A DNA stretch of 64,000 nt from Oscillospiraceae bacterium (GTDB lineage: Bacteria > Bacillota > Clostridia > Oscillospirales > Ruminococcaceae): assembly GCA_017465665.1 (NCBI GenBank), contig JAFTVU010000017.1, positions 1-64,000 of the forward strand, given 5' to 3'. The notes beneath the pieces are model-generated. The model was not told the origin of the DNA, ran no database searches, and saw nothing but the letters and a program-made list of their open reading frames with translations. A program made the translations under genes and the position numbers. Shown in pieces: positions 5,790-26,594 of this stretch. Each line of letters starts with the position of its first letter. Positions within the stretch are counted from its first letter, which is position 1.

Positions 5790-5805
5790 TTGATCATCTC
5801 TTTTC

Positions 5806-7221
5806 TTATAGCTCTATCTCTGCCGCTTTTGCTGTTACATCAGCAAGCAGCGGTCTTATTTTATCCACAAATGCTTGTGTCTGTTCGGGGCAGCGTCCTA
5901 CATAAAGGGATGGATCAAGCAGCTCCTGAATTTCACTTTCGGTAAGTCCGAACTCTTTTTCTGCCGCAAGGCGGTCAAGCAGGTCGCATTCTTCGCCGTT
6001 TTTCATCTTTGCTGACGCCTCCATCGAGCATCTGCGTATTATCTCATGCAGCTGTTGACGATCACCTCCGCGTTTAACCGCCTCCATCATAAGGTTTTCA
6101 GTGGCGATAAACGGCAGATATTCCTTCAGCGTTTTCTCGATCATCTTTTCATTAACAAAAAGACCATTTGTAACATTTTGAGCCAGTCTCAGAATAGCGT
6201 CTGCACACAGGAAGCCTTCGGGCAGAGAGATACGGCGGTTTGCCGAATCATCGAGCGTCCGTTCCAGCCACTGCGTTGCGGCAGTCATAGGTGCATTTGC
6301 AGCATCAGCAATCAGATATCGTGCCAGTGAGCATATACGTTCGCAGCGCATAGGATTACGCTTATATGCCATCGCTGACGAGCCTATCTGATCCTTTTCA
6401 AACGGTTCTTCAAGCTGACGATCATGCTGCAGCAGACGGATATCATTTGCCATACGATAACAGCTTTGTGCAATTGAGGACAGAGCATTCAATATACGGC
6501 TGTCCACCTTGCGGGGATAAGTCTGACCACAGACATCGTAGTATTCATTGAACCCGAAATCGGCAGCAATAAGACTGTTCATTTGATCGATTTTGGATGA
6601 ATCACCGTTAAACAGTTCGATAAAGCTTGCTTCAGTGCCTGTTGTACCACGGCAGCCGAGAAATTTTATATTAGCAAGTGCAAAATCTATCTCGTCGAGA
6701 TCGGAAAGCAGTTCCTGCATCCAAAGCGACGCACGCTTACCTACCGTAGTCGGCTGAGCAGGCTGATAGTGCGTGTATCCAAGTGTGGGCATCGCTTTAT
6801 ATTTCTCGGCGAAATCAGCAAGATTTGCCAAAACGCCCAAAAGCTCTGCACGCAGATAGCGCAGAGCATCTCTATAAATAATCAGGTCGGCATTATCGGT
6901 AACGTAGCAGCTCGTTGCACCTAAATGAATAATTCCTGCAGCTGTCGGAGCCGCCTTGCCGTAAGCGTACACATGAGCCATAACATCATGGCGCACTTCC
7001 TTTTCTCGTTGCTTTACACATTCGTAATCGATATCCTCGATATGTGCCGAAAGCTCCTCGATCTGCTCTGTTGTAACAGGAAGTCCAAGCTTCATCTCCG
7101 CTTTAGCCAAAGCCGTCCATAGTTTGCGCCAAGTCTGATAGCGTGTATCTGCCGAAAATAATTTCAGCATATATTCTGAAGCGTAGCGTGATGATAATGG
7201 CGATTCATATCTGTCTGTCAT
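5806..7221 (-). CDS. purB: Adenylosuccinate lyase
   Basis: Catalyses two fumarate-releasing steps of purine synthesis: SAICAR to AICAR and adenylosuccinate to AMP. It has 471 residues. The fumarase/aspartase superfamily signature loop is clear (GSSAMAYKRNPMRCERI, about residues 282-298). The start overlaps the purA stop by 4 bases (ATGA), so the two are probably coupled. Both handle adenylosuccinate, so the adjacency makes metabolic sense. Confidence 0.97.
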   Translation of the reverse strand: MTDRYESPLSSRYASEYMLKLFSADTRYQTWRKLWTALAKAEMKLGLPVTTEQIEELSAHIEDIDYECVKQREKEVRHDVMAHVYAYGKAAPTAAGIIHLGATSCYVTDNADLIIYRDALRYLRAELLGVLANLADFAEKYKAMPTLGYTHYQPAQPTTVGKRASLWMQELLSDLDEIDFALANIKFLGCRGTTGTEASFIELFNGDSSKIDQMNSLIAADFGFNEYYDVCGQTYPRKVDSRILNALSSIAQSCYRMANDIRLLQHDRQLEEPFEKDQIGSSAMAYKRNPMRCERICSLARYLIADAANAPMTAATQWLERTLDDSANRRISLPEGFLCADAILRLAQNVTNGLFVNEKMIEKTLKEYLPFIATENLMMEAVKRGGDRQQLHEIIRRCSMEASAKMKNGEECDLLDRLAAEKEFGLTESEIQELLDPSLYVGRCPEQTQAFVDKIRPLLADVTAKAAEIEL

Positions 7222-8510
7222 GTCATATCCTCCGTGTTTCTGATTATAATACTATCTCTCTGCGCACCGACAGAAATATATTTTATCAGGCAGCCGATCT
7301 GTTTTTCGATAAAGGTGATATATTCCTGTGCCTGTACAGGAAGCTCCTCCCACTTGCGGACATGGGAAATATCACACTTCCAACCATCAAAATACTCTAT
7401 AACAGGCTGGGCGTTTTTCAGCGCTGTAGGAAAAGGGAAACTATCTGTCTGCTTTCCGTTCAGCAGATAATGTGTACATACAGGAATTTTATCCATATAG
7501 CTCAGGATATCGAGCTTGGTGATCGCGATAGCTGTCGCTCCCTGCATTTCAACACCATATCTGGTAGCAACTATATCAAGCGGACCTACCCGACGGGGGC
7601 GACCTGTTTTTGCGCCATATTCAAAACCCATCTGACGAAGCTTATCCGCCTCATCTCCGAACATCTCACAAACGAAAGGACCTTCTCCAACACAAGTGGA
7701 ATAGGCCTTAACAATGCCGATGATGTCATCCAGCTTTGCGCTCGGCACACCCGCACCGATAGGCGCATAAGCGGCGAGTGTATTTGAGGAGGTAGTGTAA
7801 GGGAAGATACCATGGTCAATATCCCTTAATGAACCAAGCTGTGCCTCGAAAAGAATGTTTTTCCCATCGGCCTGCGCTTGTGTCAGGTAAGCTCCCACAT
7901 CGGAGATAAAGGGCTTGATCTTATCACAATATTTACTCAGCCATTCCTCAAGCATATCCGTAGTATACGGCTTTGCACCATATACCCTTGTGATCGTCAG
8001 GTTCTTCCATTCAAGAAGTTCCCTTAAATGCTCTCTCAATTCATCGGGATAGAACAGTTCGCCTGCCAGGATAGTTTTTTTCTGATACTTATCCGAGTAG
8101 AACGGAGCGATGCCCTGTTTGGTCGAACCGTATTTTTTGTCCGCCAGACGCTGCTCCTCCAGTTCATCCAGCTCACGGTGCCAGGGAAGCAGCAGCGAAG
8201 CACGGTCGCTTATCATGAGGTTATCGGGGGTGATCGCTACACCTTTTGATGTTACCTCTTGTATTTCTTTTATCAGGTTTTCAGGATCCAGAGCAACACT
8301 GTTTCCGAGAACATTTACAACGCCCTTTCTGAAGACACCTGAGGGTAGCAGATGAAGTGCAAACTTTCCATTCTCATTGATAACGGTATGTCCTGCGTTT
8401 CCGCCGCCTTGAAAGCGTACAACAACATCATAGTCTTTTGTCAGCAGATCAACCATACGGCCCTTGCCTTCATCGCCCCAATTGATTCCTACCACAGCAC
8501 AGTTTGACAT
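7218..8510 (-). CDS. purA: Adenylosuccinate synthetase
   Basis: GTP-dependent ligation of aspartate to IMP, the first committed AMP step. It has 430 residues. The N-terminal GINWGDEGKGRMVD P-loop and the following QGGGNAGHTV motif are intact, and the full family length is present. It overlaps purB by 4 bases and starts 12 bases after purC. Confidence 0.98.
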   Translation of the reverse strand: MSNCAVVGINWGDEGKGRMVDLLTKDYDVVVRFQGGGNAGHTVINENGKFALHLLPSGVFRKGVVNVLGNSVALDPENLIKEIQEVTSKGVAITPDNLMISDRASLLLPWHRELDELEEQRLADKKYGSTKQGIAPFYSDKYQKKTILAGELFYPDELREHLRELLEWKNLTITRVYGAKPYTTDMLEEWLSKYCDKIKPFISDVGAYLTQAQADGKNILFEAQLGSLRDIDHGIFPYTTSSNTLAAYAPIGAGVPSAKLDDIIGIVKAYSTCVGEGPFVCEMFGDEADKLRQMGFEYGAKTGRPRRVGPLDIVATRYGVEMQGATAIAITKLDILSYMDKIPVCTHYLLNGKQTDSFPFPTALKNAQPVIEYFDGWKCDISHVRKWEELPVQAQEYITFIEKQIGCLIKYISVGAQRDSIIIRNTEDMT

Positions 8511-8522
8511 TAAGATCCCTCC

Positions 8523-11586
<3,064 letters not shown>

Positions 11587-11587
<1 letters not shown>

Positions 11588-12822
11588 TATCTCTGCCCTC
11601 CCAATTTTTCTTTTCTGTATTCTGCAGGAAATGCCATCAGTGCAGGCTTTTCCAGCAGCAACGCGAGATCTACCTCATTGAGTGGTGTCTGTTCTCTCAC
11701 AAGCGAGGTGTAGATACCTGCATTATTTATCATATCTCCCATTAAAATAAAACCCTTAAGCTTGTTGTCTGCAATGAACAGATTTTTGTAACCACTTTCG
11801 CTTATCGTGGTGTGTTCCTCGCCCGAATAAGAGCCTGCAGTAATTATATGCAGACCGAAAAAGCCTGCGGCATTCATCGGAAACGCATTAGTATAATGTG
11901 CCACACCGCCTGCCATATTCTTTCCTGCAACATTTCCTTGCATAAACGCATTGGGAAGTATTGCGATCATCTTGTCCGTATTGCTTGTGATGTCATGGCT
12001 TTTTGTGCAGTCGCCTGCGGCATATATATCGGAAAGCCCCTTTACTGCCTGGGTGTCATCAGTAACTATTCCTCTATCGACCTTTCCGCCGATAGCATCG
12101 ATAAGTTCGGTATTGGGACGAACTCCGACAGCAAGGATAAGTATATCGAGATCTATACTATCTCCATTGGTCAGGGTTGCAGTGTTTTCGGAAAATTCCT
12201 TTACGGTTGTACCGAGTACAAAACGCACCCCTGTAGTTTCAATATGGTGCTTCATGATGTGTGAAGCTTCTTCATTAAGTACAGCAGGTAGGATACGTTC
12301 CGATAGATCTATCACAGTGATGTTATTTGTGAACCTTACCATTGCTTCTGCTGCTTTTAATCCGATAAGACCCGCTCCGATAATAAGTACCTTTGAGTTT
12401 TTGCTAAGCCGCTCTCTTACTGCTCTAACATCGTCCATCTTCATAAAGGTGAATTTGTTCTTTACTTTGTCAAGCCCCTCAAGCTGCGGTACAAACGGGT
12501 CAGAGCCTGTAGCAATCAGCAGCTTGTCGTATTCTGTTACGCTGGCGTCATCCATAAGTACAGTCTTGTTTTTCTTATCGATAGAAACGACTTTTTTTCC
12601 TAGCAGAGCGTTCACTTTGTTTTCTGTGTAAAACTCATTCGGGCGGTATTTCATGCCTTCTTCGGTAACATCGCCCTTCAACCAGTAGGAGATCAGAGGA
12701 CGTGAATATGTATGATAGTTCTCGTCCGAGATCATGGTGATATCTCCGTCTTTGTCAAGTTCACGGATTCCCTGAACTGCGCCGATACCTGCGGCGGAGT
12801 TTCCTATAATTACATATTTCAT
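11587..12822 (-). CDS. NAD(P)/FAD-dependent oxidoreductase of the split glutamate synthase operon
   Basis: The pyridine nucleotide-disulphide/rubredoxin-reductase type fold is visible. The FAD-binding Rossmann motif is at the very N-terminus (YVIIGNSAAGIGAVQGI), the NAD-binding motif is near residue 150 (VLIIGAGLIGLKAAEAM), and the second FAD contact is YAAGDCT. The start is the ATG at 12822, which overlaps the ferredoxin stop by one base. An upstream in-frame ATG at 12879 would add 19 residues inside the ferredoxin gene. It likely moves electrons between NAD(P)H and the ferredoxin-like protein that feeds glutamate synthase. This role is inferred from context. Confidence 0.88.
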
Positions 12823-13271
12823 TACTGCTCGCCCCTCTCCTCGTATACTATAGCCTTGTTTGGGCAGCCCTTGACACATGCTGGCTCTCCCGCTGCGGAA
12901 TTAAGGCAAAGCTCACATTTTGTGACGGTCTTGCCTCCTGATTTCTTATCAGGGGCTATACAGCCGTAGGGACATACCAGCACGCAGGTGTAGCAACCAA
13001 CGCACTTCGCTTTGTCGATCTCGACCATGCCGTTCTTTTTGGTGAGTGCGCCCGCAATACAGCTCTTTACGCATAGGGGGTCTTCGCAGTGCCTGCACTG
13101 AACAGCGAAGTATATATCCTTGCTCTCCTCAATGCGCACACGAGGAGCGACCACTCTGCCGAGCTTGAACGCCTTTGCCATATCCGTTTCGCCGCCGCCC
13201 GCAAATGAACAGTAGAACTCGCATAAGTGACAGCCAAGACAGCGTTCCTCATTCACATATACCTTTTTCAT
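12822..13271 (-). CDS. 4Fe-4S ferredoxin-type electron-transfer protein
   Basis: The protein has 149 residues with four cysteine clusters: CLGCHLCEFYC, CRHCEDPLCVKSC, CVGCYTCVLVCPYGC and CELCLNSAAGEPACVKGC. This is the HycB/DmsB-like multi-cluster layout rather than a simple 2x[4Fe-4S] ferredoxin. It lies between the FAD oxidoreductase (1-base overlap) and the FMN subunit, so it most plausibly wires electrons into the split glutamate synthase. Confidence 0.9.
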   Translation of the reverse strand: MKKVYVNEERCLGCHLCEFYCSFAGGGETDMAKAFKLGRVVAPRVRIEESKDIYFAVQCRHCEDPLCVKSCIAGALTKKNGMVEIDKAKCVGCYTCVLVCPYGCIAPDKKSGGKTVTKCELCLNSAAGEPACVKGCPNKAIVYEERGEQ

Positions 13272-13290: not shown

Positions 13291-14796
13291 TTATTCGCCG
13301 GCGTGAGCTATTCCAAGAATATCAAGCTCTTTCTGTGTAAGTCCGATGCCTCTCAGCATAAGGCGGTTACCTCTGAGTGCTTCGATAGAGTTTATTCCCA
13401 TGCCGCCCAGTATCTCTTTTATCTCATGGTTCCATGCGTTGACAAGGTTTACAAGCCTCTTGTATGCAACATCGGGATTAAGCCGCTTTACAAGCTCGGG
13501 GCGCTGCGTTGCAATACCCCAGTTACACCTACCGCTGTGGCAGCTTCTGCAAAGGTGACATCCCATAGCCAGCAGTGCAGGGGTTGCGATATACACTGCG
13601 TCTGCTCCGAGAGCGATTGCCTTAACTGCATCGGAGGAGCTTCTGATGGAACCGGCTGCTACAATAGACACTTCGTTTCTGATGCCCTCGTGGCGGAGTC
13701 TGCCGTCAACTGCTGCAAGAGCAAGCTCGATCGGGATTCCCACATTATCTCTTATTCTTGTAGGAGCGGCACCTGTTCCACCTCTGAAACCGTCTATCGC
13801 GATGATATCCGCACCTGATCTTGCAATGCCTGAGGCAATAGCCGCTACATTATGTACTGCGGCTATCTTCACGATGATAGGCTTTTTGTACTCGGTAGCT
13901 TCTTTAAGCGAAAAAATAAGCTGTCTTAAATCCTCAATAGAATATATATCATGATGGGGAGCAGGTGAGATAGCGTCCGTTCCCATAGGTATCATTCTTG
14001 TACGGGAAACGTCCTCCGCAATCTTTTCGCCGGGGAGATGTCCACCAATACCGGGCTTTGCGCCCTGACCCATTTTGATCTCGATTGCGGCGCCTGTGTC
14101 AAGATATCCCTTGAATACGCCAAAACGTCCCGATGCTACCTGAACGATGGTGTTATCTCCGTATTTGTAAAAATCCTTATGAAGACCACCCTCGCCTGTG
14201 TTATAGTAGGTTCCTAGCTCCTCTGCGGCTCGTGCAAGGGCTTCGTGGGCGTTCTTCGAGATAGAGCCGTAGGACATCGCCGAGAACATAATGGGGATGT
14301 CAAGCTCAAGGTGAGGCTCTATATGTGTGTCTATGCTGCCGTCTGCTTTCTTTTTGATAGGGATCGGCTTTTTGCCGAGAAATACCTTTGTTTCCATAGG
14401 CTCGCGCAACGGGTCGATAGGCGGGTTCGTTACCTGAGATGCGTTCAGCAGGATCTTATCCCAGTACACGGGGTAATCCTTGGGAGTTCCCATAGAGGAT
14501 AGCAGCACACCGCCGCTCTCTGCCTGACGATAGTTTTCAAGCATAAGCTGCTGAGTATAATTTGCGCTTTGTCTGAAAGCATTTGCATTCGGCTGTATCT
14601 TCAGTGCTCCTGTAGGGCAAAGACAGACGCAGCGTTGGCAATCTACACATTTGTTTTCATGCGCCAACATTTTGCTGTAGTCCGAATCGTAATAGTGTAC
14701 CTCGTTTGCACATTGACGTTCACAGGCACGACAGCTGATACATTTATCATAATTGCGGATTATCTCAAATTCCGCAGGAAAATAGTTTACAGACAT
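13291..14796 (-). CDS. Glutamate synthase FMN/Fe-S central subunit (GltB2-like)
   Basis: The protein has 501 residues. The N-terminus carries two ferredoxin-like clusters (CISCRACERQC and CVDCQRCVCLC, residues about 18-60). The rest is the FMN-binding TIM barrel of glutamate synthase, with AVHNVAAIASG, GADIIAIDGFRGGTGAAPT and the 3Fe-4S-type cysteines CHLCRSCHSGRC. The barrel converts 2-oxoglutarate plus ammonia to glutamate. The fused ferredoxin clusters suggest ferredoxin or the adjacent electron-transfer proteins as donor. It overlaps the amidotransferase subunit by 10 bases. Confidence 0.95.
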   Translation of the reverse strand: MSVNYFPAEFEIIRNYDKCISCRACERQCANEVHYYDSDYSKMLAHENKCVDCQRCVCLCPTGALKIQPNANAFRQSANYTQQLMLENYRQAESGGVLLSSMGTPKDYPVYWDKILLNASQVTNPPIDPLREPMETKVFLGKKPIPIKKKADGSIDTHIEPHLELDIPIMFSAMSYGSISKNAHEALARAAEELGTYYNTGEGGLHKDFYKYGDNTIVQVASGRFGVFKGYLDTGAAIEIKMGQGAKPGIGGHLPGEKIAEDVSRTRMIPMGTDAISPAPHHDIYSIEDLRQLIFSLKEATEYKKPIIVKIAAVHNVAAIASGIARSGADIIAIDGFRGGTGAAPTRIRDNVGIPIELALAAVDGRLRHEGIRNEVSIVAAGSIRSSSDAVKAIALGADAVYIATPALLAMGCHLCRSCHSGRCNWGIATQRPELVKRLNPDVAYKRLVNLVNAWNHEIKEILGGMGINSIEALRGNRLMLRGIGLTQKELDILGIAHAGE

Positions 14797-15899
14797 CTCT
14801 TTCTGCCCTCCTCATTAAGCGTTACCACAACGGGCTCTCCACCCTTTGGGGACCATACGTTTCCACAATCGGGACAGATGGCTCTGATGGCGCACTCCTC
14901 GCTGGCGATATATACCCTGTCGTCTTTTTCCGCAACGACCATAGAGCGCAGCTTCAGTCGATCGTTCAATGCCATAATTCCGCCCGTGTAGCCAAGAATT
15001 ATAGAAAACGGACCGGTGATAAGCAGTCCCGAAAGGGCGTTGCGCAGATATCTCAGCTTTTCTGCCTGTTCGGGGTCAGTGCGACCAATCTCATCTATCT
15101 TCGTCCAGAAAGGTGCAGCGATGACCGAGGCGATATCCTCAAGACTAAGCTGCTGTTTTCTGTGGAGCCAGTCAAAAATATATGTGATGACCTCTGTATC
15201 GGTCAGCAAGGTGCATTTGTATCCGAACATCTCAATGAAACGGCGGTTAGCGTCATAAGAGGATATCTCACCGTTATGGACGATAGAGTAATCCAGCAGC
15301 GAGAAAGGATGTGCTCCGCCCCACCAGCCGGGTGTGTTCGTGGGATATCTTCCATGAGCTGTCCACGCATATCCGTCATATTCGTCAAGGCGGTAGAATT
15401 GGCCAACATCCTCGGGATATCCAACCGCTTTGAATACTCCCATATTTTTTCCGCTGGAAAAAACATATGCACCCTTTATATCGTTGTTTATCCTGATGAC
15501 ACACTTGGCTACATATTCCTTTTCATCAAGCTGCGAGGACGCTATCTTCGTGGGGCGCGGGTCAACGAAATATCTCCATATCAGCGGCTCATTGGTTATA
15601 GAAGGGATTCTTCTTATAGGAATACGGCTGAGGTTTATCACATCAAAATGACGATCGAGAAACTTCTCGGTCTGTTCACGCACCTCGTTTGAATCATAAA
15701 AGATATGAAATGCATAATGATCCTTATATTCGGGATATATGCCATATCCCGCAAATCCACCGCCGAGACCGTTAGAACGGTCATGCATATACGAGATCGA
15801 CTTGACGATCTCACTACCATTGATCCTGTTTCCATCTCTGCTGATGAAACCTGAAATGGCACATCCTGCAGGAATTCGCACTTGACCCTCTAAAAGCAT
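14787..15899 (-). CDS. Glutamate synthase amidotransferase subunit (GltB1-like, class II)
   Basis: The protein has about 370 residues with a class II (Ntn) glutamine amidotransferase fold: AWTAHGRYPTNTPGWWGGAHPF, VHNGEIS and the later LLTDTEVITYIFD are typical of GltB N-domains. It would release ammonia from glutamine for the FMN subunit. I start it at the ATG at 15899 because AAGGAGG lies close upstream; the longer frame to 15980 runs through the promoter. With that start the usual catalytic Cys2 is not at the N-terminus (MLLEGQVRIPAGCAISG), and the nearest candidate nucleophile is Cys13. That implies processing, as in GltB proper. It is the first gene of the minus-strand operon. Confidence 0.9.
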   Translation of the reverse strand: MLLEGQVRIPAGCAISGFISRDGNRINGSEIVKSISYMHDRSNGLGGGFAGYGIYPEYKDHYAFHIFYDSNEVREQTEKFLDRHFDVINLSRIPIRRIPSITNEPLIWRYFVDPRPTKIASSQLDEKEYVAKCVIRINNDIKGAYVFSSGKNMGVFKAVGYPEDVGQFYRLDEYDGYAWTAHGRYPTNTPGWWGGAHPFSLLDYSIVHNGEISSYDANRRFIEMFGYKCTLLTDTEVITYIFDWLHRKQQLSLEDIASVIAAPFWTKIDEIGRTDPEQAEKLRYLRNALSGLLITGPFSIILGYTGGIMALNDRLKLRSMVVAEKDDRVYIASEECAIRAICPDCGNVWSPKGGEPVVVTLNEEGRKRCL

Positions 15900-15937: not shown

Positions 15938-15967
15938 ATGATAGCACTTTGGTTACTTTTTTGTCAA
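15938..15967 (-). promoter_or_regulatory. sigma-70-type promoter of the glutamate synthase operon
   Basis: On the minus strand TTGACA (15967-15962), an 18-base spacer and TATCAT (15943-15938). It sits about 40 bases upstream of the amidotransferase start and is followed by a good AAGGAGG ribosome binding site. Confidence 0.75.
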
Positions 15968-15975
15968 TACTTTTG

Positions 15976-16001
15976 TGCAAGTTTTTTTAAAACAACTTGC
16001 A
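15976..16001. promoter_or_regulatory. dyad TGCAAG-N14-CTTGCA upstream of the gltB promoter
   Basis: Perfect inverted repeat, extended to 8-base arms TGCAAGTT/AACTTGCA, 26 bases end to end. Its centre (15988.5) is 21.5 bases upstream of the outer edge of the gltB -35 box, a typical activator position. A second copy has the same geometry at the glnN promoter. Confidence 0.65.
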
Positions 16002-16151
16002 TTTTGGTGTATTTTATCTATGTTTTAACCGATTTTCAAATATGATTATGAAAGATATGCACAATTTGCTTTCAAGAAAACGGATATGCAATCTTAAATT
16101 TTATAACATTTTACAAATTATCGTCAAATCAATTGCTCAAAATATGGCAAA

Positions 16152-16177
16152 TGCAAGAAATTGAACGAAAACTTGCA
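16152..16177. promoter_or_regulatory. dyad TGCAAG-N14-CTTGCA upstream of the glnN promoter
   Basis: Same half-sites and the same 14-base spacing as the copy at 15976. Its centre (16164.5) is again 21.5 bases from the outer edge of the -35 box, here TTGACA at 16186. A further half-site TGCAAGT lies at 16214-16220, over the end of the -10 box. Confidence 0.65.
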
Positions 16178-16185
16178 AAAACACC

Positions 16186-16214
16186 TTGACAAGAAATTAA
16201 CACGGTGATATAAT
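16186..16214 (+). promoter_or_regulatory. sigma-70 consensus promoter of glnN
   Basis: TTGACA (16186-16191), 17-base spacer, TATAAT (16209-16214): a perfect consensus match, about 75 bases before the glnN start. A TGCAAGT half-site overlaps the downstream edge. Confidence 0.85.
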
Positions 16215-16290
16215 GCAAGTGTAAACGACAGAGGCATCGACTATAACCTACGATCGTTTGCAATATAAATATACGAAAGAAGGAACATCA

Positions 16291-18384
16291 ATGAGAAACG
16301 TTTCGGACTATTTCGGTGAAAATGTATTCAACGAAAGCGCAATGAAAGCACGGCTTCCAAAGGATACCTTCAAGCAGCTTCAGGCAGCGATCAATAACGG
16401 TAAGCGTCTTGAACCGTCTGCGGCTGGTGTGGTAGCCAATGCCATCAAGGACTGGGCAATCGAAAAAGGTGCTACCCACTACACCCACTGGTTTCAGCCG
16501 ATGACAGGTATCACCGCAGAGAAGCACGATAGCTTTATCAGCCCGAATAATGACGGCAGAGTTATTATGGAGTTTTCGGGCAAGGAACTCATTCAGGGCG
16601 AGCCTGACGCTTCCAGCTTTCCCTCCGGCGGACTGAGAGCAACATTCGAAGCAAGAGGCTACACTGCGTGGGATCCCACTTCATTTGCATTCATCAAAGA
16701 TGGCGTTCTCTGCATTCCGACAGCATTCTGCTCCTACGGCGGTGAAGCGCTTGACAAAAAGACACCGCTGCTGCGCTCAATGGAAGCCATAAATAAGCAG
16801 GCGCTCAGGGTGCTGAAGCTTTTTGGAAATGATGATGTTACTTCTGTAAAGACCACAGTAGGTCCCGAGCAGGAATATTTTCTTATCGACAAAGAAATGT
16901 ACGATAAGCGCAAGGACCTTATCTATACAGGCAGGACGCTTTTCGGTGCAAAGCCACCTAAAGGACAGGAGTTAGACGACCACTATTTCGGTGTCATCAA
17001 GCCGAGAGTTCAGGCATATATGAACGAGCTTAACGAGGAGCTGTGGAAACTGGGAATCCTTGCAAAGACCGAACATAACGAGGTCGCTCCTGCACAACAT
17101 GAGCTTGCTCCCATTTTCGCTACCACTAACATCTCCGCCGATCACAACCAGCTTACAATGGAGATCATGCAGAAAGTTGCAAAGAAGCACGGACTTGTAT
17201 GTCTGCTACACGAGAAGCCCTTTGATGGCGTGAACGGCTCCGGCAAGCACAACAACTGGTCGATCAGCACAAATACAGGCGTAAACCTTCTCGAACCGGG
17301 CGAAACCCCCTATGAGAATGCGCAGTTCCTGCTGTTCCTGTGTGCAGTTATTAAGGCAGTTGACGATTATCAGGATCTGCTTAGGATTTCCGTAGCTTCT
17401 GCGGGAAACGACCACAGACTCGGAGCAAACGAGGCTCCTCCTGCCATCGTGTCGATGTTTATCGGCTCGGAGCTTTCTGAGGTGCTTCAGGCTATAGAGA
17501 CCGACACTCCTTACGGTGCAAAGGAAAAGGAACTTTTGAGGGTAGGTGTTCATGTGCTGCCTAAATTCCCTAAGGACAGTACAGACAGAAACCGTACTTC
17601 TCCCTTTGCGTTCACAGGTAATAAGTTCGAGTTCAGAATGCTGGGCTCCGCAAACTCGATCTCGGGCTGCAACACCGTACTTAACACCGCAGTAGCTGAA
17701 GAGCTTAAGCAGTTTGCCGATGAGCTTGAAAATGCAGCGGATTTCGATACCGCTCTGCACGATCTTGTAAAGAGAGTTATCGTTGAGCACCAGCATGTTA
17801 TCTTCAACGGAAACGGATATGATGATTCGTGGGTAGCCGAGGCCGAGAAGAGAGGTCTGCTCAATCTCAAGACCACTCCCGATGCGCTTCCTTATTTCAT
17901 CCATGATAAGAATATCAAGCTGTTCACCTCTCATAAGGTATTCACCGAGGTGGAGATCCGATCTCGCTATGAGATCAATCTTGAGAACTACTGCAAGGTA
18001 GTAAATATCGAGGCTCTGACTATGGTGGATATGGCTCGCAAGGATATTCTTCCTGCAATCAGCGAGTACATAGCTTCTCTTTCCGCTTCTGCGGGTGCAA
18101 AGCAGGCGATCGGCTCGGATGTGGACTTAAGCTATGAGGCAGAGACGGCAAAGGAGCTGTCGGCTCTTTCAGGCAAGGCGTTCAGCGCACTTAAAACGCT
18201 GGAGGCAAAGCTGGAGGAGACTAAGCGCATCTTTGATATTACGGTGCTGGCAGCATTTTATAAGGACGAGGTGCTTGCCGCTATGGACGAACTGAGAGCT
18301 GCCGTAGACAGCGCCGAGATGCTTACAGCCGCAGAGTACTGGCCGTATCCCTCCTACGGAGAGCTGCTGTTCGGTGTAAGATGA
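16291..18384 (+). CDS. glnN: Glutamine synthetase type III
   Basis: ATP-dependent synthesis of glutamine from glutamate and ammonia. It has 697 residues, the length of the GSIII family rather than GSI (about 450). Family motifs include [10 protein letters not shown] (ATP and metal-binding glutamates), [12 protein letters not shown], the nucleotide loop [15 protein letters not shown], and [21 protein letters not shown]. The start is the ATG at 16291 with AAGGA 6 bases upstream; the longer reading uses a TTG without a site. It is first in the plus-strand unit and is transcribed divergently from glutamate synthase, so GS and GOGAT share one control region. Confidence 0.97.
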
Positions 18385-18408: not shown

Positions 18409-19833
18409 ATGACAAATAACATACACGAAGAGTGTGGCGTGTTCGGCATTTATTCCGACAGAACAGCAAATGTAGCGGGAACAGTATATCTGGGGCTCTA
18501 TGCGCTTCAGCACAGAGGTCAGGAGGCGTGCGGTATCGCAGTCTGCGACGACGGTGTTTTTTCCTCAAAAAAGGGTGAGGGTCTGGTATCTGAAGTCTTT
18601 GACGAGAATACGATAAAGTCGCTGGGCGAGGGTAATATTGCCGTGGGACACGTCAGATATTCTACAACGGGCGGTGGAGGTCTGAACAATATACAGCCGC
18701 TTACAATACGTCACATCAAAGGAAATCTGGCACTTGCACATAACGGAAACCTCGTGAATGCCGAGGAGCTCCGCAGAGGTTTTGAACTTTCGGGAGCCAT
18801 CTTCCATAGCACTTCCGATACCGAAGCGATAGCCTATGAGATAGTATCCGAGCGCTTGAAATCGTCCTCCACTGAGGAAGCTGTAAGCAAGATAATGAGC
18901 AAGCTGAAAGGCGCATATTCTTGTGTGCTTATGACCGCCACAAAGCTGATAGCTTTCCGAGACCCTAATGGATTCCGCCCGCTTGTTATGGGTAAACGCA
19001 ATGACGGTGCGTATATCATTGCCTCGGAATCCGGTGCTATTAAAGCGGCAGGAGGAGAACTTGTCCGTGATATCATGCCTGGTGAGATCGCAGTCATAGA
19101 CAAAAGCGGCGTAAGGAGCATCCGCACGAACACCTGTGGCAAGGGTAGTCTGTGTGTGTTCGAATATATCTACTTCGCCCGTCCCGACTCAGTAATTGAC
19201 GGAGCATCGGTACATCACGCAAGGCTACGGGCAGGACAATATCTCGCAAAGGACAGCGCAGCTGCGGCAGATGTGGTTATCGGGGTTCCCGATTCAGGTC
19301 TAGACGCGGCAATGGGCTATGCCAAAGAAAGCGGCATACCCTATGGCATCGGTTTTGTTAAGAATAAATACATCGGCAGAAGCTTTATCCTACCCGAACA
19401 GCACAGTCGTGAAGACGCAGTAAATATAAAGCTGAGCGTCATATAGGAAACTGTAAATGGCAAGCGAGTCGTACTCGTGGATGACTCTATAGTCAGAGGT
19501 ACTACCTGCGCTCGCATCGTACAGCTGTTGCGGGAAGCCGGTGCGAAAGAGGTGCACATGAGAGTATCCTCTCCCCCGTTCAGACACTCCTGTTATTTCG
19601 GCACAGATATCGACAGCGAAGACGATCTTATCGCTTGCCGTTATGATAACACAGAGGATATAGCACGAGTTATCGGCGCAGACTCGCTGGCATACCTCTC
19701 CATAGAGGCCACCTCTGAAATTGCCGAAGACTGCAGACTTGGAATATGCAACGGCTGCTTCAGCGGAAAATATCCTATAGAAATAACAAAAGCGCCGCAG
19801 AAAAATAAATTTGAACAAAAGATACATAGATAA
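18409..19833 (+). pseudogene. purF: Amidophosphoribosyltransferase interrupted by an in-frame TAG
   Basis: First committed step of purine synthesis, using glutamine. The N-terminal Ntn glutaminase domain is clear: catalytic Cys at residue 9 (HEECGVFGIY), GHVRYSTTG and SDTEAI. The phosphoribosyltransferase domain follows, with the PRPP loop VVLVDDSIVRGTT. A TAG at 19444-19446 splits the gene in one frame: 18409-19446 codes for 345 residues and the open remainder runs to 19833. Homology continues across the stop (LSVI, stop, ETVNGKRVVLVDD), so this is a point nonsense change or sequence error, not a boundary between two genes. The PRPP loop is downstream of the stop, so a truncated product should be inactive. 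AGG to TAG at a usual Arg position would explain it by one base. Confidence 0.9.
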
Positions 19834-19850
19834 AACAAACAGAGGCATTG

Positions 19851-19876
19851 CCGCAGCATTGCTGCCGGTGCTGCGG
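19851..19876 (+). other. strong hairpin between purF and amt
   Basis: Arms CCGCAGCA and TGCTGCGG with a 10-base loop, starting 18 bases after the purF stop and ending 26 bases before the amt start. No T-run follows, so it is more likely an RNA-processing or stability element than a terminator. Confidence 0.5.
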
Positions 19877-19902
19877 ACTACCCCTGAACAAAGAAAGGGT
19901 GT

Positions 19903-21657
19903 ATGATTATGACAGACCTTATGATGCAGGTAACGGAACAGGTCAACGCCGAAGTATTCGGTATATGGTTCCTTATCGGTGCAGCGCTCGTTTTCTTCAT
20001 GCAGGCGGGCTTTGCAATGGTGGAAACAGGCTTCACCAGAGCCAAGAATGCAGGCAATATCATCATGAAAAACCTGATGGATTTCTGCATCGGTACAGTG
20101 GTTTTTGCTGTGCTTGGCTTCGGGCTGATGTTCGGCGAGGATATCGGTGGCTTTATAGGCATTCCGACATTCGATCTGTTTACAGATTACGGAGCGTTTG
20201 ATTGGCCGAACTTCGTATTCAATCTGGTATTCTGTGCAACAGCAGCTACTATCGTTTCCGGTGCAATGGCAGAAAGGACAAAGTTCCTTTCCTACTGCAT
20301 TTATTCAGCTATAATCAGTCTTGTTGTCTATCCCGTTGAGGCACATTGGATTTGGGGCAGCGGATGGCTGGCTCAGATGGGCTTCCATGATTTCGCAGGT
20401 TCCTGCGCAATCCATCTTGTAGGCGGTGTTACAGCTCTTATTGGTGCTGCTATAGTAGGACCGAGAATAGGCAAATTCACAAAGGACAAAAAGCCGGTGG
20501 CTATTCCGGGACATTCACTCACCTTAGGTGCTCTCGGCTGTTTTATCCTCTGGTTTGGCTGGTACGGCTTCAACGGTGCCGCTGCCACAACAGGACCTCA
20601 GCTCGGTTCTATTTTCCTGACTACAACCATTGCTCCCGCTGTCGCAACAGTAGTGTGCATGATCTTCACATGGCTGAAATATGGCAAGCCCGATGTTTCC
20701 ATGTGCCTGAATGCATCACTTGCAGGTCTTGTAGGTATAACAGCAGGCTGTGATATCATGGATGCTGCCGGTGCAGCTATCGTAGGCTTAGTATCTGGAC
20801 TGCTGGTCATTTTTGGCGTATGGTTCCTTGACAATGTGCTCAAAGTTGATGATCCTGTCGGTGCGGTCGCAGTCCATTTCCTAAACGGTATATGGGGCAC
20901 ACTCGCTGTAGGACTTTTCGCTACGTCCACAGCTCCCGAGAGCGGACTGACCGGTCTGTTTTACGGCGGCGGCTTTGAGCTTTTCGGCAAGCAGCTGTTG
21001 GGAGTTCTCACTGTTACAGCCTGGACAGCTGTTACGATGACACTGGTGTTCCTTGTTATCAAGAAAACGATCGGTCTGAGAGTATCCCGTCATGAGGAGG
21101 TTGTCGGCCTTGACCTTACAGAGCACGGTCTTGCTTCCTCCTACGCTGACTTTATCCCCTCTACTCATATCGAAACAACAAGCTCGGGCAAGGAGCGCGA
21201 GGTTGCGAACGTCATTCCAGCCGTCCCTATTGAGAAGGCTGTTCCTGTTGAGTACAACAACACTGACGGTGCTCTCTCGGGTAATGTTCATACTGCCGGC
21301 GTAAAAATGACAAAGGTGGATATCATCACCGGCATGGAACGGTTTGAGCCGTTAAAGAATGCACTGTATGATATCGGAATAACAGGAATGACAGTTACTA
21401 ATACTATGGGCTGCGGTATGCAGAAAGGCTCTGCCGAATATTACCGTGGAGTAAAGGTAACTCCTCGGTTGTTGCCCAAGGTCAAGATCGAGGTGGTTGT
21501 GTGCAAGATACCTGTAAGTGAAGTTGTTGACGCTGCAAAGAATGCACTCTATACAGGCAATATCGGAGACGGAAAGATATTTGTTTATAATGTGGAGAAT
21601 GTGGTAAAGATCAGAACTTCCGAGGAGGGCTATGATGCCCTGCAGGACAACGCATAA
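19903..21657 (+). CDS. amt: Ammonium transporter fused to a PII signalling domain
   Basis: The protein has 584 residues. Residues 1 to about 420 are an Amt/MEP/Rh channel with many membrane spans and the twin-His pore (IHLVGGVTALIG and AVHFLNGIWGT). After a linker, the C-terminal 110 or so residues are a complete GlnB/GlnK domain: KMTKVDIITGMERFEPLKNAL, T-loop with GSAEYYRG and the B-loop/C-terminal IGDGKIFVYNVE. In ordinary genomes GlnK is a separate protein that plugs the channel under high nitrogen, so here the plug is covalently attached. It lies between purF and guaA, 69 bases after purF. The start may alternatively be the ATG at 19909. Confidence 0.96.
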   Translation: MIMTDLMMQVTEQVNAEVFGIWFLIGAALVFFMQAGFAMVETGFTRAKNAGNIIMKNLMDFCIGTVVFAVLGFGLMFGEDIGGFIGIPTFDLFTDYGAFDWPNFVFNLVFCATAATIVSGAMAERTKFLSYCIYSAIISLVVYPVEAHWIWGSGWLAQMGFHDFAGSCAIHLVGGVTALIGAAIVGPRIGKFTKDKKPVAIPGHSLTLGALGCFILWFGWYGFNGAAATTGPQLGSIFLTTTIAPAVATVVCMIFTWLKYGKPDVSMCLNASLAGLVGITAGCDIMDAAGAAIVGLVSGLLVIFGVWFLDNVLKVDDPVGAVAVHFLNGIWGTLAVGLFATSTAPESGLTGLFYGGGFELFGKQLLGVLTVTAWTAVTMTLVFLVIKKTIGLRVSRHEEVVGLDLTEHGLASSYADFIPSTHIETTSSGKEREVANVIPAVPIEKAVPVEYNNTDGALSGNVHTAGVKMTKVDIITGMERFEPLKNALYDIGITGMTVTNTMGCGMQKGSAEYYRGVKVTPRLLPKVKIEVVVCKIPVSEVVDAAKNALYTGNIGDGKIFVYNVENVVKIRTSEEGYDALQDNA

Positions 21658-21671
21658 GATATTGTTTTCTC

Positions 21672-21734
21672 CCGTGCGGCGATGCGCCTCCAAAGCTTTA
21701 CTGATTCGCTTTATGCCATTGCGTCGCCGCACGG
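21672..21734 (+). other. long hairpin after amt
   Basis: Perfect 11-base arms CCGTGCGGCGA (21672-21682) and TCGCCGCACGG (21724-21734), with partial pairing continuing inward. It could end amt transcription, but there is no clean T-run, so its role is unclear. Confidence 0.55.
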
Positions 21735-21753
21735 TGTGATATATCAGCATATA

Positions 21754-21790
21754 AATACGCAGACCTAACACAGTGTAAGGCCTGCGTATT
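21754..21790 (+). other. second hairpin in the amt-guaA gap
   Basis: Arms AATACGCAG and CTGCGTATT (9 bases), with CCT/AGG pairing one base further in. It ends about 30 bases before the guaA start, within the leader. No guanine riboswitch consensus is visible. Confidence 0.5.
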
Positions 21791-21821
21791 GGCGTATAAA
21801 AAACAGAAAGGGAGCTTTATT

Positions 21822-23381
21822 ATGTCACAAATGTTTTCAAACAAGCATGAGCTTATACTTGTTGTTGATTTCGGCGGACAATATAATCAGCTTATTGCAC
21901 GCCGTATCAGAGAGCAGCATATTTATTGCGAGGTCATTTCCTACCGCACTTCCGTAGCGGAAATCGTCGCCAGAAAGCCTAAGGGGATCATCTTTACAGG
22001 CGGACCTGACAGCGTATATCTGAAGAACTCTCCCAAAATAGATAAAGAGATCTTTTCACTTGGTATCCCTATACTCGGAATCTGCTATGGAGCGCAGCTG
22101 ATGGCTCATGTGCTTGGCGGTGAAATAGCAGCTGCCAAAGACAGCTCTCTTGCAGAATTCGGCAAGACTGTAACGCATATCGATACTCATTCCGTCCTTT
22201 TCAGAGGAATGAGTGATACTACTATTGCATGGATGAGCCACAATGACTATATAAAAAGACTTCCGGAGGGCTCCATTGCTATTGCTCATACTGCGAAATG
22301 CCGCTATGCAGCGATAGAAGACAGGGAGCGGCATTTGTACGGTGTTCAGTTTCATCCCGAGGTAAATCACACAGTTCAGGGCAGCGAGCTGCTGAAAAAC
22401 TTTCTTCGCAGTATCTGCGGTTGCCATGCCGACTGGACAATGGAAAGCTACGCCGAATCCGCCGTAAAGGAGATCAGAGAAAAGGTTGGAGACGGCAGAG
22501 TCTTACTGGCATTATCGGGCGGAGTAGACAGTTCTGTTGCCTGCATGCTGCTTGCAAAGGCAGTGGGAGAGCAGCTTACTTGTATTTTCGTGGATCATGG
22601 CCTTATGCGCAAGAACGAGGGAGATGAAGTCGAGAATGCTTTTGCGGATTCAGGGGTGAACTTTATACGCATCAATGCTGCCGAACGGTTTATGAAAGCA
22701 CTCGCAGGAATATCGGATCCCGAAAAAAAGCGCAAGATAATCGGAATGGAATTTATACGGGTCTTTGAGACGGAAGCCCAAAAGCTCGGCAGGATAGATT
22801 ATCTCGTTCAGGGCACTATCTATCCCGATGTTATCGAATCTGGCGCTGGAGATGCCGCTGTGATAAAAAGCCACCACAATGTCGGCGGATTGCCCGATTT
22901 TGTTGATTTCAAGGAGATAATTGAGCCTTTGCGTCTGCTGTTTAAGGACGAGGTACGCAAGCTGGGACTTACTCTGGGGCTTGCAGAGGAGCTGGTGTGG
23001 CGGCAGCCTTTCCCGGGTCCCGGACTGGCTGTAAGGATAATAGGAAACATCACTGCCGAAAAGGTCAGAATACTTCAAGAGGCTGACGCTATATTCCGCG
23101 AAGAAATAGTGAACGCAGGGCTTAGCCGCAGCATAAATCAGTATTTTGCCGTACTTACGGATATGCGTTCCGTCGGAGTAATGGGCGACGGCAGATCTTA
23201 TGATCACACTCTTGCATTGAGAGGAGTTACCACCTCGGATTTTATGACGGCCGATTTTGCCCGTATCCCCTATGATGTACTGGAAAAGGTATCTGTGCGT
23301 ATAGTTAACGAGGTTGGAGGCATAAATAGGATCGTTTATGATATCACGAGCAAACCGCCGTCAACGATAGAGTGGGAGTGA
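21822..23381 (+). CDS. guaA: GMP synthase (glutamine-hydrolysing)
   Basis: Aminates XMP to GMP. It has about 519 residues: an N-terminal class I GATase (nucleophile [12 protein letters not shown], triad FHPEV), the ATP-PPase P-loop ([14 protein letters not shown]) and the C-terminal dimerisation domain ([20 protein letters not shown]). The start is the ATG at 21822, preceded by AAAGGGAG; the longer frame from 21789 uses a non-ATG start inside the hairpin. It is another glutamine consumer in the cluster. Confidence 0.97.
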
Positions 23382-23418
23382 TAGTCGTTCGAAACAGTAT
23401 ATAATGCGAGGAGTTATT

Positions 23419-23697
23419 ATGGAACTAAAAACAATACAACATTTGTGCGAGTTGAGCAAGCTCAATTATGATGATGAGGCTCTTGAAAAAGTCGCATCAG
23501 AGATGACAGACATTATCTCGCTCATGGACGGGATAAAGGAGTTTGATCTCAGCTACGATGACACCAAGGACAACAACAGCATTTCTTTCGGAGAGGTGCG
23601 CGAGGACATCGTAAAGCCTTCGTTTTCTCCCGAAAAGCTCATGCAGAACGCAAAAAGCGTGGATGACTGTTATGTTGTTCCTAAGGTAGTGGATTAA
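23419..23697 (+). CDS. gatC: Asp-tRNA(Asn)/Glu-tRNA(Gln) amidotransferase subunit C
   Basis: A 92-residue helical subunit that bridges GatA and GatB. The pattern IQHLCELSKLNYDDEAL near the start and the C-terminal AKSVDDCYVVPKVVD are family-typical. I place the start at 23419, where GCGAGGAG precedes the ATG; the track-length start at 23404 lies within that site. It is followed 11 bases later by gatA. Confidence 0.93.
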   Translation: MELKTIQHLCELSKLNYDDEALEKVASEMTDIISLMDGIKEFDLSYDDTKDNNSISFGEVREDIVKPSFSPEKLMQNAKSVDDCYVVPKVVD

Positions 23698-23708
23698 GGA
23701 GGCGCGGT

Positions 23709-25157
23709 ATGGATATCAGAAGAACAAGAATACGCGACCTCAGAAAAGCGCTTGACACAAAGCATATAAGCGCTACAGAGCTTTGCAGCGAGTATTTCAG
23801 CCGCATCGAGGCTGTTGACGGAAGGCTTCAGTCCTACATCACAGTTACAAAGGAAAAGGCATTTGAAATGGCTGCCGAGGCGCAGAAGCTTATAGACAGC
23901 GGCAAAGGGACAGAGCTTACAGGAATACCGATAGCCGTCAAGGATAACATCTGCACAGACGGCGTTAAGACCACCTGTTCAAGCAGAATGCTGGAGAATT
24001 TCGTTCCGCCGTATGACGCAACGGTTATAGAAAATCTGAAGCGTGAGGGCTATGTACTGCTTGGAAAGACCAGTATGGACGAGTTCGCCATGGGCGGCTC
24101 AAACCAGACTTCGGCATTTGCAAAGACTGCGAATCCCTATGACCTTGAGCGTGTGCCGGGCGGCTCCTCGGGCGGCAGTGCAGCCGCAGTTTCAGCTTCG
24201 CTCGCGCCGTGCGCATTAGGCTCGGATACAGGCGGTTCAATAAGACAGCCTGCGGCTTTCTGCGGAGTAACGGGAATAAAGCCAACATACGGCAGAGTAT
24301 CGCGTTACGGACTTGTTGCATTTGCAAGCTCGCTTGATCAGATAGGACCTATAGCAAACAGCGCGGAGGACTGTGCAATACTGCTGAACACGCTCTGCTC
24401 TCATGACGAGCATGATGCAACCAGTGCAAGAGTAACAGTACCCGATTTCACCGAAAAGCTGGGTCAGCCTATAAACAGCATGAAAATAGCTATGCCAAAG
24501 GAGTTCTTTGCAGACGAGATAGACAACGAGGTGCGTGAGGCTGTACTGGAAGCGGCAAAGTCGCTTGAAGCAAAGGGTGCAAAGCTTGTTGAATGTTCAA
24601 TGCCGTCGCTGAAATACGCGATTCCTGCGTATTATCTCATTGCCTGTGCCGAGGCTGCTTCAAATCTCTCCCGCTTTGACGGCATCAAATACGGATACAG
24701 GGGAGAGGGTGCGACCCTTGAAGAGCTTATCCGAGACAGCCGCACCAAGGGTTTCGGCGAGGAGGTAAAGCGCCGTATACTTCTCGGAAACTATGCCCTT
24801 TCCAGCGGCTATTACGATGCATATTACAAGAAAGCGCTTGCTTTAAAGCAGGAGATAATCAAAGAATACAACGAGCTTTACGATACTGCCGATGTAATTC
24901 TCACACCGACAGCACCGACTGTAGCTTATAAGATAGGCGCTCAGGATAACGACCCTGTGAAGATGTACCTTGCCGATATCTGCACGGTCACAGTAAATAT
25001 CGCAGGACTTCCGGCGATAAACACCACCTGCGGCTATGACAAGGCAGGTATGCCTATCGGTATGTCGCTTGTCGGAAAGCGCTTTGACGAGACTACGATA
25101 CTTCAGCTTGCGGACGCATTCGAGCGTGAATTTACGCCCGTCCTTCCAAAGCTTTAA
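23709..25157 (+). CDS. gatA: Asp-tRNA(Asn)/Glu-tRNA(Gln) amidotransferase subunit A
   Basis: Amidase-signature glutaminase that supplies ammonia for correcting misacylated tRNAs. It has 482 residues. The Ser-cisSer-Lys triad region is visible as IPIAVKDNI (Lys), the glycine/serine stretch GGSSGGSAAAV and DTGGSIRQPAAFCG. It sits 11 bases after gatC and 12 before gatB. Confidence 0.98.
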   Translation: MDIRRTRIRDLRKALDTKHISATELCSEYFSRIEAVDGRLQSYITVTKEKAFEMAAEAQKLIDSGKGTELTGIPIAVKDNICTDGVKTTCSSRMLENFVPPYDATVIENLKREGYVLLGKTSMDEFAMGGSNQTSAFAKTANPYDLERVPGGSSGGSAAAVSASLAPCALGSDTGGSIRQPAAFCGVTGIKPTYGRVSRYGLVAFASSLDQIGPIANSAEDCAILLNTLCSHDEHDATSARVTVPDFTEKLGQPINSMKIAMPKEFFADEIDNEVREAVLEAAKSLEAKGAKLVECSMPSLKYAIPAYYLIACAEAASNLSRFDGIKYGYRGEGATLEELIRDSRTKGFGEEVKRRILLGNYALSSGYYDAYYKKALALKQEIIKEYNELYDTADVILTPTAPTVAYKIGAQDNDPVKMYLADICTVTVNIAGLPAINTTCGYDKAGMPIGMSLVGKRFDETTILQLADAFEREFTPVLPKL

Positions 25158-25169
25158 GGAGGTGCAGCT

Positions 25170-26594
25170 ATGAGATATTATCCTACAATGGGACTTGAGA
25201 TACACGCGGAGCTGCTTACAAAATCAAAGGTGTTCTGCTCTTGTTCGGCCGAATTTGGCGGTGAGCCTAATACACGCTGCTGCCCTGTATGCAGTGGACT
25301 TCCGGGAACGCTACCTGTGCTTAACCGCCGCGCTGTCGAGTACATTATAAAAGCAGGCTATGTTATGAACTGCGATATCAGCCGTTTTACAAAATGGGAC
25401 AGGAAAAACTATTTCTATCCCGACCTGCCCAAGGCGTATCAGATATCGCAGATGCCACGCCCTGTCTGCCTTGACGGTCATGTTGATATCAAGGTAAACG
25501 ACGAAGATAAGACTATCCGAATCAACCGTATCCACCTTGAGGAGGACGCAGGCAAGCTGACCCACGAGGGCAGAATATCCCTTGCAGACTACAACCGTTG
25601 CGGAATACCGCTTATTGAGATAGTAACAGAGCCTGATTTTCACAGTGCTGAAGAAGTTGTTGCATTCTTCGAGAAGATAAAGCTGCTGCTTTTGTACGCA
25701 GGTATATGCGATTGCAAGATGGAACAGGGCAGCATCCGCTGTGATGTGAACATCTCCATTGCACCCGAGGGCAGCGAACAACTCGGCACACGCACCGAGC
25801 TTAAAAATCTGAACTCTCTCAAAGCCATTGCTAAGGCGATCGAAGCAGAGATAGCACGTCAGGCTGAGATGCTGGACAACGGCGGCGAGATCGTTCAGGA
25901 AACGCGGCGTTTCAACGAGGCTGCAATGGAAACGCTCGCCATGCGTTCCAAGGAGGATGCGCACGATTATCGTTATTTCCCCGATCCTGACATTCCGCCG
26001 ATAATCTTCACCGAGGAGGAGCTTGCAGATATCCGCGCAACGCTTCCCGAAATGCCTGAGCAGCGCATGGCGCGTTACCGCACAGCATACGGGATAAGCG
26101 AGAACGACGCTGTGATAATCGTTTCTGATAAACGCGTCAGCGACTTTTTTGACGAGGCTGTGGACGGCTGTAAAAGTCCTAAAAACGTTGCAAGCTACCT
26201 TGTAGGCGAGTTTATGCGAAGGGTAAATCTCGGCGAAATAGACCTTGACGTGCTGAAATTCAGCGGTAAGGACTTCGCAAGGCTTGTGGAATATCTCTAT
26301 TCCGACAAGCTCTCGCAGAACAATGCAAAGCTGGTATTAGGAGAAATGGCACAGCGTGGCAGCTCTCCTGAAACTATCGCAGATGAGCAGGACCTCTGGA
26401 TAAAGGAGGACACCGAGCTGCTTTCTGCGGTTATTGATGAGATAATAGCAAGCAACCCCAAAGCTGCCGAGCAGTACCGAAACGGCGACCAAAAGGTGTT
26501 TGGATTCTTCATGGGTCAGGCAAACAAGGCACTCAAAGGCGCAGCTTCGCCTAAAGCGATAAAGGATTATCTGCTGATAAAGCTTCACATATAA
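25170..26594 (+). CDS. gatB: Asp-tRNA(Asn)/Glu-tRNA(Gln) amidotransferase subunit B
   Basis: Kinase and tRNA-binding subunit of GatCAB, 474 residues. Typical motifs are the N-terminal GLEIHAELLTKSKVFCSC with zinc-binding cysteines (CSCSAEF and RCCPVCSG), YFYPDLPKAYQISQ and LEEDAGKLTH, and the YqeY-like C-terminal domain. Presence of GatCAB implies indirect synthesis of Gln-tRNA and/or Asn-tRNA, tying translation to glutamine supply. A terminator follows at 26653. Confidence 0.98.
   Translation: MRYYPTMGLEIHAELLTKSKVFCSCSAEFGGEPNTRCCPVCSGLPGTLPVLNRRAVEYIIKAGYVMNCDISRFTKWDRKNYFYPDLPKAYQISQMPRPVCLDGHVDIKVNDEDKTIRINRIHLEEDAGKLTHEGRISLADYNRCGIPLIEIVTEPDFHSAEEVVAFFEKIKLLLLYAGICDCKMEQGSIRCDVNISIAPEGSEQLGTRTELKNLNSLKAIAKAIEAEIARQAEMLDNGGEIVQETRRFNEAAMETLAMRSKEDAHDYRYFPDPDIPPIIFTEEELADIRATLPEMPEQRMARYRTAYGISENDAVIIVSDKRVSDFFDEAVDGCKSPKNVASYLVGEFMRRVNLGEIDLDVLKFSGKDFARLVEYLYSDKLSQNNAKLVLGEMAQRGSSPETIADEQDLWIKEDTELLSAVIDEIIASNPKAAEQYRNGDQKVFGFFMGQANKALKGAASPKAIKDYLLIKLHI

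Follow-up and report, generated by a model that had tools for sequence, protein, structure and literature searches.

A predicted dyad operator of ammonia-assimilation genes in gut and rumen Clostridia, with an RpiR-family protein as its candidate regulator

A dyad of the form TGCAAG-N14-CTTGCA precedes both glnN and the divergent glutamate synthase (GOGAT) operon in a 64,000-nucleotide stretch of DNA (the window) from an Oscillospiraceae bacterium (contig JAFTVU010000017.1, assembly GCA_017465665.1; Table 1). Clostridia are major users of ammonia in the gut and the rumen, and, judging from motif conservation, the dyads mark a real ammonia-assimilation regulon in these bacteria. They are probably the operators of a nitrogen-assimilation regulon, read most likely by the RpiR-family regulator of Table 1, which would act as an activator from upstream sites.

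Table 1. Features of the divergent region, its flanking genes and the candidate regulator gene. Coordinates are positions in the window unless a locus is named.
Feature	Coordinates	Strand	Remarks
-10 TATCAT, glutamate synthase operon promoter	15938..15943	-	sequence
-35 TTGACA, glutamate synthase operon promoter	15962..15967	-	sequence; spacer to -10 of 18
gltB-side dyad operator (predicted), TGCAAG-N14-CTTGCA	15976..16001	.	centre 15988.5; sequence, shuffles
Weaker dyad TGAAAG-N14-CTTTCA, possible third operator	16049..16074	.	putative function
glnN dyad operator (predicted), TGCAAG-N14-CTTGCA	16152..16177	.	centre 16164.5; sequence, shuffles
-35 TTGACA, glnN promoter	16186..16191	+	sequence; spacer to -10 of 17
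-10 TATAAT, glnN promoter	16209..16214	+	sequence
Single TGCAAG half-site	16214..16219	+	first base is the last base of the glnN -10
Glutamate synthase glutaminase subunit (GATase_2)	14787..15899	-	first minus-strand gene
Glutamate synthase FMN subunit with ferredoxin domain	13291..14796	-
4Fe-4S ferredoxin subunit	12822..13271	-
Pyridine nucleotide-disulphide oxidoreductase subunit	11587..12879	-
Glutamate synthase GXGXG subunit	10862..11587	-
pyrG, purC, purA, purB, carA, carB, nadE	665..10845	-	downstream of the glutamate synthase genes; co-transcription predicted from spacing
glnN, glutamine synthetase type III (GSIII)	16291..18384	+
Class-II GATase, amt fused to P-II domain, guaA, gatC, gatA, gatB	18409..26594	+	downstream of glnN; co-transcription predicted
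rpiR, candidate regulator gene of the source genome	L373:1589-2464, contig C76		N-terminal HTH_6, C-terminal SIS

The gltB-side and glnN dyads are identical in their half-sites and N14 spacing and differ in their spacer sequences, as originally predicted. The centre of each is indeed 21.5 bases from the edge of its -35 box, with a gap of 8 bp between dyad and -35 on both sides. These are the only two exact copies in the window, where the shuffled expectation is 0.02 and none of 100 shuffles reaches two; together with conservation across the genus, this bears out the view that the dyads are not due to chance. The extra half-site reported at the glnN -10 is present and shares one base with it. 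A weaker dyad, also symmetric, sits between the two exact ones. Two relatives with the same divergent region were examined, G007 and G009, and all three dyads are recognisable in both. The glnN dyad is exact in each; the gltB-side dyad has one end base altered in G007 and an N13 spacing in G009. The third dyad, the aspartate aminotransferase target and the candidate regulator were absent from the original prediction.

The glutamate synthase of the window is of the split, ferredoxin-linked type. Between 665 and 26594, two divergent gene trains gather many enzymes that draw nitrogen from glutamine or aspartate. This cluster was also considered as a set of glutamine enzymes that is duplicated or confers resistance, a reading set aside since its pyrG is the single CTP synthase copy in the genome, although glnN has a second copy (contig C97). 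That copy has no dyad in the approximately 440 bp before its start, the best candidate there having four mismatches. In G007 and G009, too, pyrG is found some 5 kb away from the dyads. Elsewhere in the window, 32441-39896 encodes a MobL relaxase, RHH, MerR and Cro/C1-type proteins, an AAA protein and a large serine recombinase, and looks like an integrated mobile element.

The whole source genome has four exact dyads and no match to a reversed-pattern control. Two are the glnN/gltB pair, one is 5' of a PF12897 aspartate aminotransferase gene (aspAT) and one is 5' of a chemoreceptor gene. With one mismatch allowed there are 13 dyads against 4 control matches, several of the dyads being inside genes. 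Within the genus, the exact dyad is found in 37 of 43 genomes, at 82 sites against 23 for the control, so the motif is neither absent from orthologous promoters nor placed at random. The six genomes of the genus that lack an exact dyad (G004, G014, G020, G021, G029 and G031) all have TGCAGG-N14-CTTGCA at aspAT. Among 297 genomes sampled across the family, the exact dyad is present in 92 and, by our own count, the control pattern in 19.

The matches listed give 124 site-gene pairs from 103 distinct sites, pairing being allowed up to 420 bp in both directions, so that one site in a divergent region may count for two genes. For eleven genomes of the family, a second listing covered the remaining sites as well. 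aspAT is the commonest target (58 pairs), followed by amt (21), the glutaminase-type GOGAT gene gltGAT (14) and glnN (12), with 19 pairs for other genes. Dyad contexts among these matches include both glutamate synthase types, ilvE, glnQ, asnA, argC, iorA and purA, and further diaminopimelate dehydrogenase (dapdh), glutamate dehydrogenase (gdhA), cytosine deaminase (codA) and an ANTAR regulator. The target list is descriptive and not blind, as the gene queries were picked after the site contexts had been viewed. Pfam confirms the glutamate dehydrogenase in L362 and the ANTAR regulator in L232; the names ilvE, glnQ, asnA, codA, dapdh, purA (outside the window), urtB and lysA were read from sequence, with no Pfam call. 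Doubtful pairings are those of asnA, argC and iorA, three gltGAT pairs at a gap of 24 and a distant second site. A further 36 exact sites could be matched to none of the listed genes, and many lie within reading frames; they were treated as background, and a few were later assigned (for example L018, L133 and L134). Outside the family, the targets are glnN/gltGAT (G463), amt (G370, 345 bp away), a permease gene read as urtB (G378) and aspAT. That one and the same dyad precedes nitrogen genes such as glnN, gltB, amt and aspAT across many genera supports the earlier proposal of one nitrogen regulator for glutamine synthetase and glutamate synthase. In L369 and L370 (G034 and G030), a half-degenerate dyad occupies corresponding positions at a gene of the citrate-transporter family (Pfam CitMHS in L369).

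The position of the dyad relative to the -35 falls into a few classes. A gap of exactly 8 bp is found in 16 of 21 amt, 6 of 14 gltGAT and 3 of 12 glnN pairs; the expectation of one common distance before glnN, gltB and amt is borne out to a good extent. The other glnN sites have gaps of 7, 17, 20 or 21 bp. The 7-8 bp class (18 of 21 amt sites) comprises amt, glnN, GOGAT, the ANTAR gene and one dehydrogenase gene, the 17-21 bp class some glnN genes and codA, and the 28-30 bp class ilvE and asnA. At -13, the TTGACA is inside the dyad, as at glnQ in three genomes and the large gltB in two. Stray gaps of 5, 6, 24 and -20 are few, and several of these are doubtful pairings. At 10.5 bp per helical turn, the sites fall on a common face more often than expected (R = 0.59, p approximately 0.001; 19 gene-gap classes, partly dependent on one another); aspAT was left out of this set, codA failed the -35 filter, and the doubtful rows (iorA, amt at -20, gltGAT at 24) were kept. 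From site position and helical phase, the predicted activation of glutamine synthetase and glutamate synthase appears plausible, the shared site being the observed part of that claim and activation the inferred one.

The aspAT promoters have a geometry of their own. CTTGCA is 18 bp from the -10 in 52 of 58, there is no good -35, and the half-site occupies the -35 slot; 27 of the 58 have an extended -10. In seven loci (L020, L029, L058, L134, L230, L441 and L442) the dyad spacer holds a TTGACA or TTGACT box, and the genes concerned are unrelated (glnQ, large gltB, lysA-like). At the chemoreceptor genes of G000 and G006 (L004:76-101 and L018:1397-1422) the dyad begins 12-13 bp beyond the -10, where a repressor might be expected to bind; a dyad at these genes hints at a tie between taxis and nitrogen state. 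The mixed site positions suggest an activator that may also repress, depending on where it binds.

The candidate regulator belongs to the RpiR family. A sequence-only profile from 69 sites was searched in 31 genomes, and the matches listed place dyads 5' of one RpiR-family gene in G000, G016, G020, G025 and G037; an exact dyad 5' of the same gene in G156 had been seen before that search. The site at rpiR of the source genome is imperfect, with two mismatches, and has the aspAT geometry, 18 bp from a TATTAT. All six RpiR proteins scanned have an N-terminal HTH_6 and a C-terminal SIS domain above the Pfam gathering scores (for example 53.9 against 28.3 bits and 85.4 against 25 bits), and no NCBIfam equivalog reaches its cut-off for the three scanned. 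An ortholog scoring at least 285 bits is found in 30 of 40 genomes, in one copy each except for two in G046, and is well separated from the paralogs of these genomes, which score at most 107 bits. In the class Clostridia, 117 of 195 sampled genomes have it at E <= 1e-40, and only G465 has two copies. Sequence relatives among solved structures include 4ivn, 3sho, 8tx9 and 7en6. In the SIS domain, the loop that aligns with the phosphosugar-binding serine/threonine loop reads S-F-P-R-Y; its F-P-R-Y is invariant and the S nearly so among 30 orthologs. The aligned loop of 4ivn is S-S-S-G-S, and this departure makes a plain sugar-phosphate signal doubtful. The surroundings of rpiR are stable: in most of 20 RpiR loci examined (within L383-L440), a gene for a flavoprotein read as HI0933 type is next or next but one, and in some a cytidylate kinase-like gene comes after it.

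Other regulators were considered in a neighbourhood survey of 20 stretches of up to 20 kb round sites, 14 aspAT loci and 40 kb of the window. OmpR-type response regulators were seen at seven loci, LytTR-like and AraC-like proteins at three each (families assigned by eye) and an ANTAR protein at nine. None of these makes a convincing reader of the dyad: the OmpR-type, LytTR-like and AraC-like regulators are linked to the sites by no more than recurrence in the neighbourhood, and the ANTAR protein is RNA-binding. A MocR-type gene beside L075 was a single case and was left aside. Further conceivable types include MarR, LysR, BirA, NikR and Rrf2.

The link between RpiR and the dyad was assessed at aspAT by one rule for all genomes, at most one mismatch to TGCARG-N13/14-CYTGCA within 250 bp, which 0.1% of base-shuffled regions satisfy. 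Thirty genomes were chosen for having no exact dyad, two of which have no aspAT ortholog and were left out of the co-occurrence table; of 32 genomes of the class, 13 had aspAT. Among 41 genomes, 21 have both the aspAT dyad and the RpiR ortholog, none has the dyad only, five have RpiR only and 15 have neither (Fisher 2.4e-7, or 3.2e-6 with the genus counted once). Outside the family, the aspAT dyad is present in six of seven RpiR-positive genomes against none of six RpiR-negative ones. The co-occurrence follows phylogeny in part. The five of 26 RpiR-positive genomes with no aspAT dyad are G053, G102, G104, G145 and G357; an in-frame stop interrupts the RpiR match in G102, though also in the dyad-positive G044. 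Over all dyads outside the family there is a modest enrichment, summed by hand, with 49 in 27 RpiR-positive genomes (control 7) against 25 in 29 RpiR-negative genomes (control 9).

The 5' regions of the RpiR genes themselves have a perfect TGCARG-N13/14-CYTGCA in 10 of 61 cases and one with a single mismatch in 11, against 0.2% of base-shuffled regions; in the other 40 no site is found within one mismatch. Without the three loci that were found via dyads (L352, L371 and L374), 18 of 58 are within one mismatch, the 58 still including the rpiR loci of G000, G020 and G156, which were also first seen via dyads.

An RpiR dimer may contact, from a single face of the helix, the two TGCARG half-sites, whose centres are 20 bp (about two turns) apart. 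Bound 8 bp upstream of the -35, with its centre near -56, it would make contact with RNA polymerase and, under nitrogen shortage, stimulate transcription from both divergent promoters, that of glnN and that of the glutamate synthase operon. At aspAT and at rpiR of the source genome, the site 18 bp from the -10, with a half-site in the -35 slot, would make for a class II-like arrangement. At a few promoters (glnQ, large gltB and the chemoreceptor gene), where the site is over the -35 or just after the -10, binding should repress. The sites, their geometry and conservation, the co-occurrence with RpiR and the dyads at rpiR itself are observed; binding by RpiR, activation and the nitrogen signal are what we infer from sequence.

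Repression at every promoter is the more serious alternative, possible though rather unlikely in our estimate: RpiR would use the same operators, bound in nitrogen excess and released in limitation. The amt and glnN promoters are near-perfect in consensus, with no obvious need for an activator, and this is a point against activation. A half-site filling the -35 slot at aspAT and rpiR, a -35 within the dyad at glnQ and the large gltB, and a dyad after the -10 at the chemoreceptor gene of G000 and G006 would all suit a repressor, and several known RpiR proteins are repressors. However, the commonest position before an intact -35 is 8 bp upstream, and the phasing extends to gaps of 28-30 bp, which fits contact with polymerase better than steric block. 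The poor -35 of aspAT, with its frequent extended -10, suits class II activation, and repression is compatible with it as well.

An unlikely reading is that another conserved transcription factor binds the dyads and that rpiR is merely one target, since this single RpiR gene is preceded by dyads in several families and, in the set of 41 genomes, the aspAT dyad never occurs where the RpiR ortholog is missing. The recurrent neighbourhood regulators (OmpR-type, LytTR-like and AraC-like) are tied to the sites by nothing more than their recurrence. Yet the evidence for the regulon stands independently of the RpiR assignment, other regulators have dyads too (the ANTAR protein of L232, for example), and 40 of the 61 rpiR 5' regions are without a close site. 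It is highly improbable that the dyads are chance occurrences or an RNA element, such as a terminator or an ANTAR target, and not DNA operators. Palindromes can fold in RNA, and three amt leaders that were folded show strong terminator-like hairpins, but nearly all assigned sites are upstream of or across the -35 and so are not transcribed from that promoter. The spacers diverge while the ends are fixed, the geometry is conserved, and the count in the window is far above expectation, all of which argues against both chance and RNA.

Known members of the RpiR/MurR family (RpiR/AlsR, HexR, MurR and NanR) govern sugar metabolism and sense sugar phosphates rather than nitrogen, a point against the proposal. 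The candidate shares their HTH_6 and SIS domains; in its SIS loop it differs from 4ivn. On balance we favour the wider view that this SIS-domain protein may be the general ammonia-assimilation regulator of much of the class Clostridia, a counterpart of GlnR/TnrA, NtrC or NtcA, with a SIS pocket perhaps re-tooled for a nitrogen metabolite, an amino-sugar product of glutamine or a partner protein. If so, a family of sugar-sensor proteins moves into nitrogen control, and the motif could be used to annotate many genomes. With a defined operator, a candidate gene and aspAT as the commonest target, the proposal is directly testable. Among the papers listed in searches of the open-licence literature, none linked RpiR to nitrogen, and none of the titles listed in a text search there with the two dyad hexamers fitted a known motif.

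GlnR and TnrA of Bacilli likewise act through short inverted repeats close to promoters in controlling ammonia assimilation, glutamine synthetase included. They are MerR-type proteins with the site TGTNA-N7-TNACA, in contrast to the TGCARG-N14-CYTGCA and RpiR-type candidate described here. TGTNA-N7-TNACA has one match in the window, at 54443, against 1.02 expected, and none in the glnN/gltB region, and a GlnR/TnrA regulon was rejected. NtrC and NtcA are global nitrogen activators; NtrC needs σ54 promoters and the NtcA site is GTA-N8-TAC, whereas the promoters here are of σ70 type with another motif. NtrC with σ54 was also rejected: TGGCAC-N5-TTGC has no match with 0-1 mismatch between glnN and gltB, where σ70-type boxes are present. 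With two mismatches there is one match, at 15942, the window total being 53 against 60.5 expected. GlnR control is known in other Gram-positives (PMC9249791). No clostridial or Ruminococcus transcription factor joining glutamine synthetase, glutamate synthase, ammonium transporter and aspartate aminotransferase was found among the open-licence papers listed.

Across diverse bacteria, genes for ammonium transporters and for glutamate/glutamine synthesis are among those under ANTAR antitermination, whose RNA target consists of two hexaloop hairpins in the 5' leader with A1 and G4 in the loop (PMC3369931). This system acts on RNA after initiation, whereas the dyads are promoter DNA; one ANTAR gene is preceded by a dyad, and amt leaders look like ANTAR targets. 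In the amt leaders of L016, L034 and L056, after the -10, there is a strong terminator-like hairpin whose 5' arm, by eye, can also form a short ANTAR-like hexaloop hairpin with A1 and G4. Six amt loci and the second glnN had no match in Rfam. The amt genes may be under double control, at the level of initiation and through antitermination.
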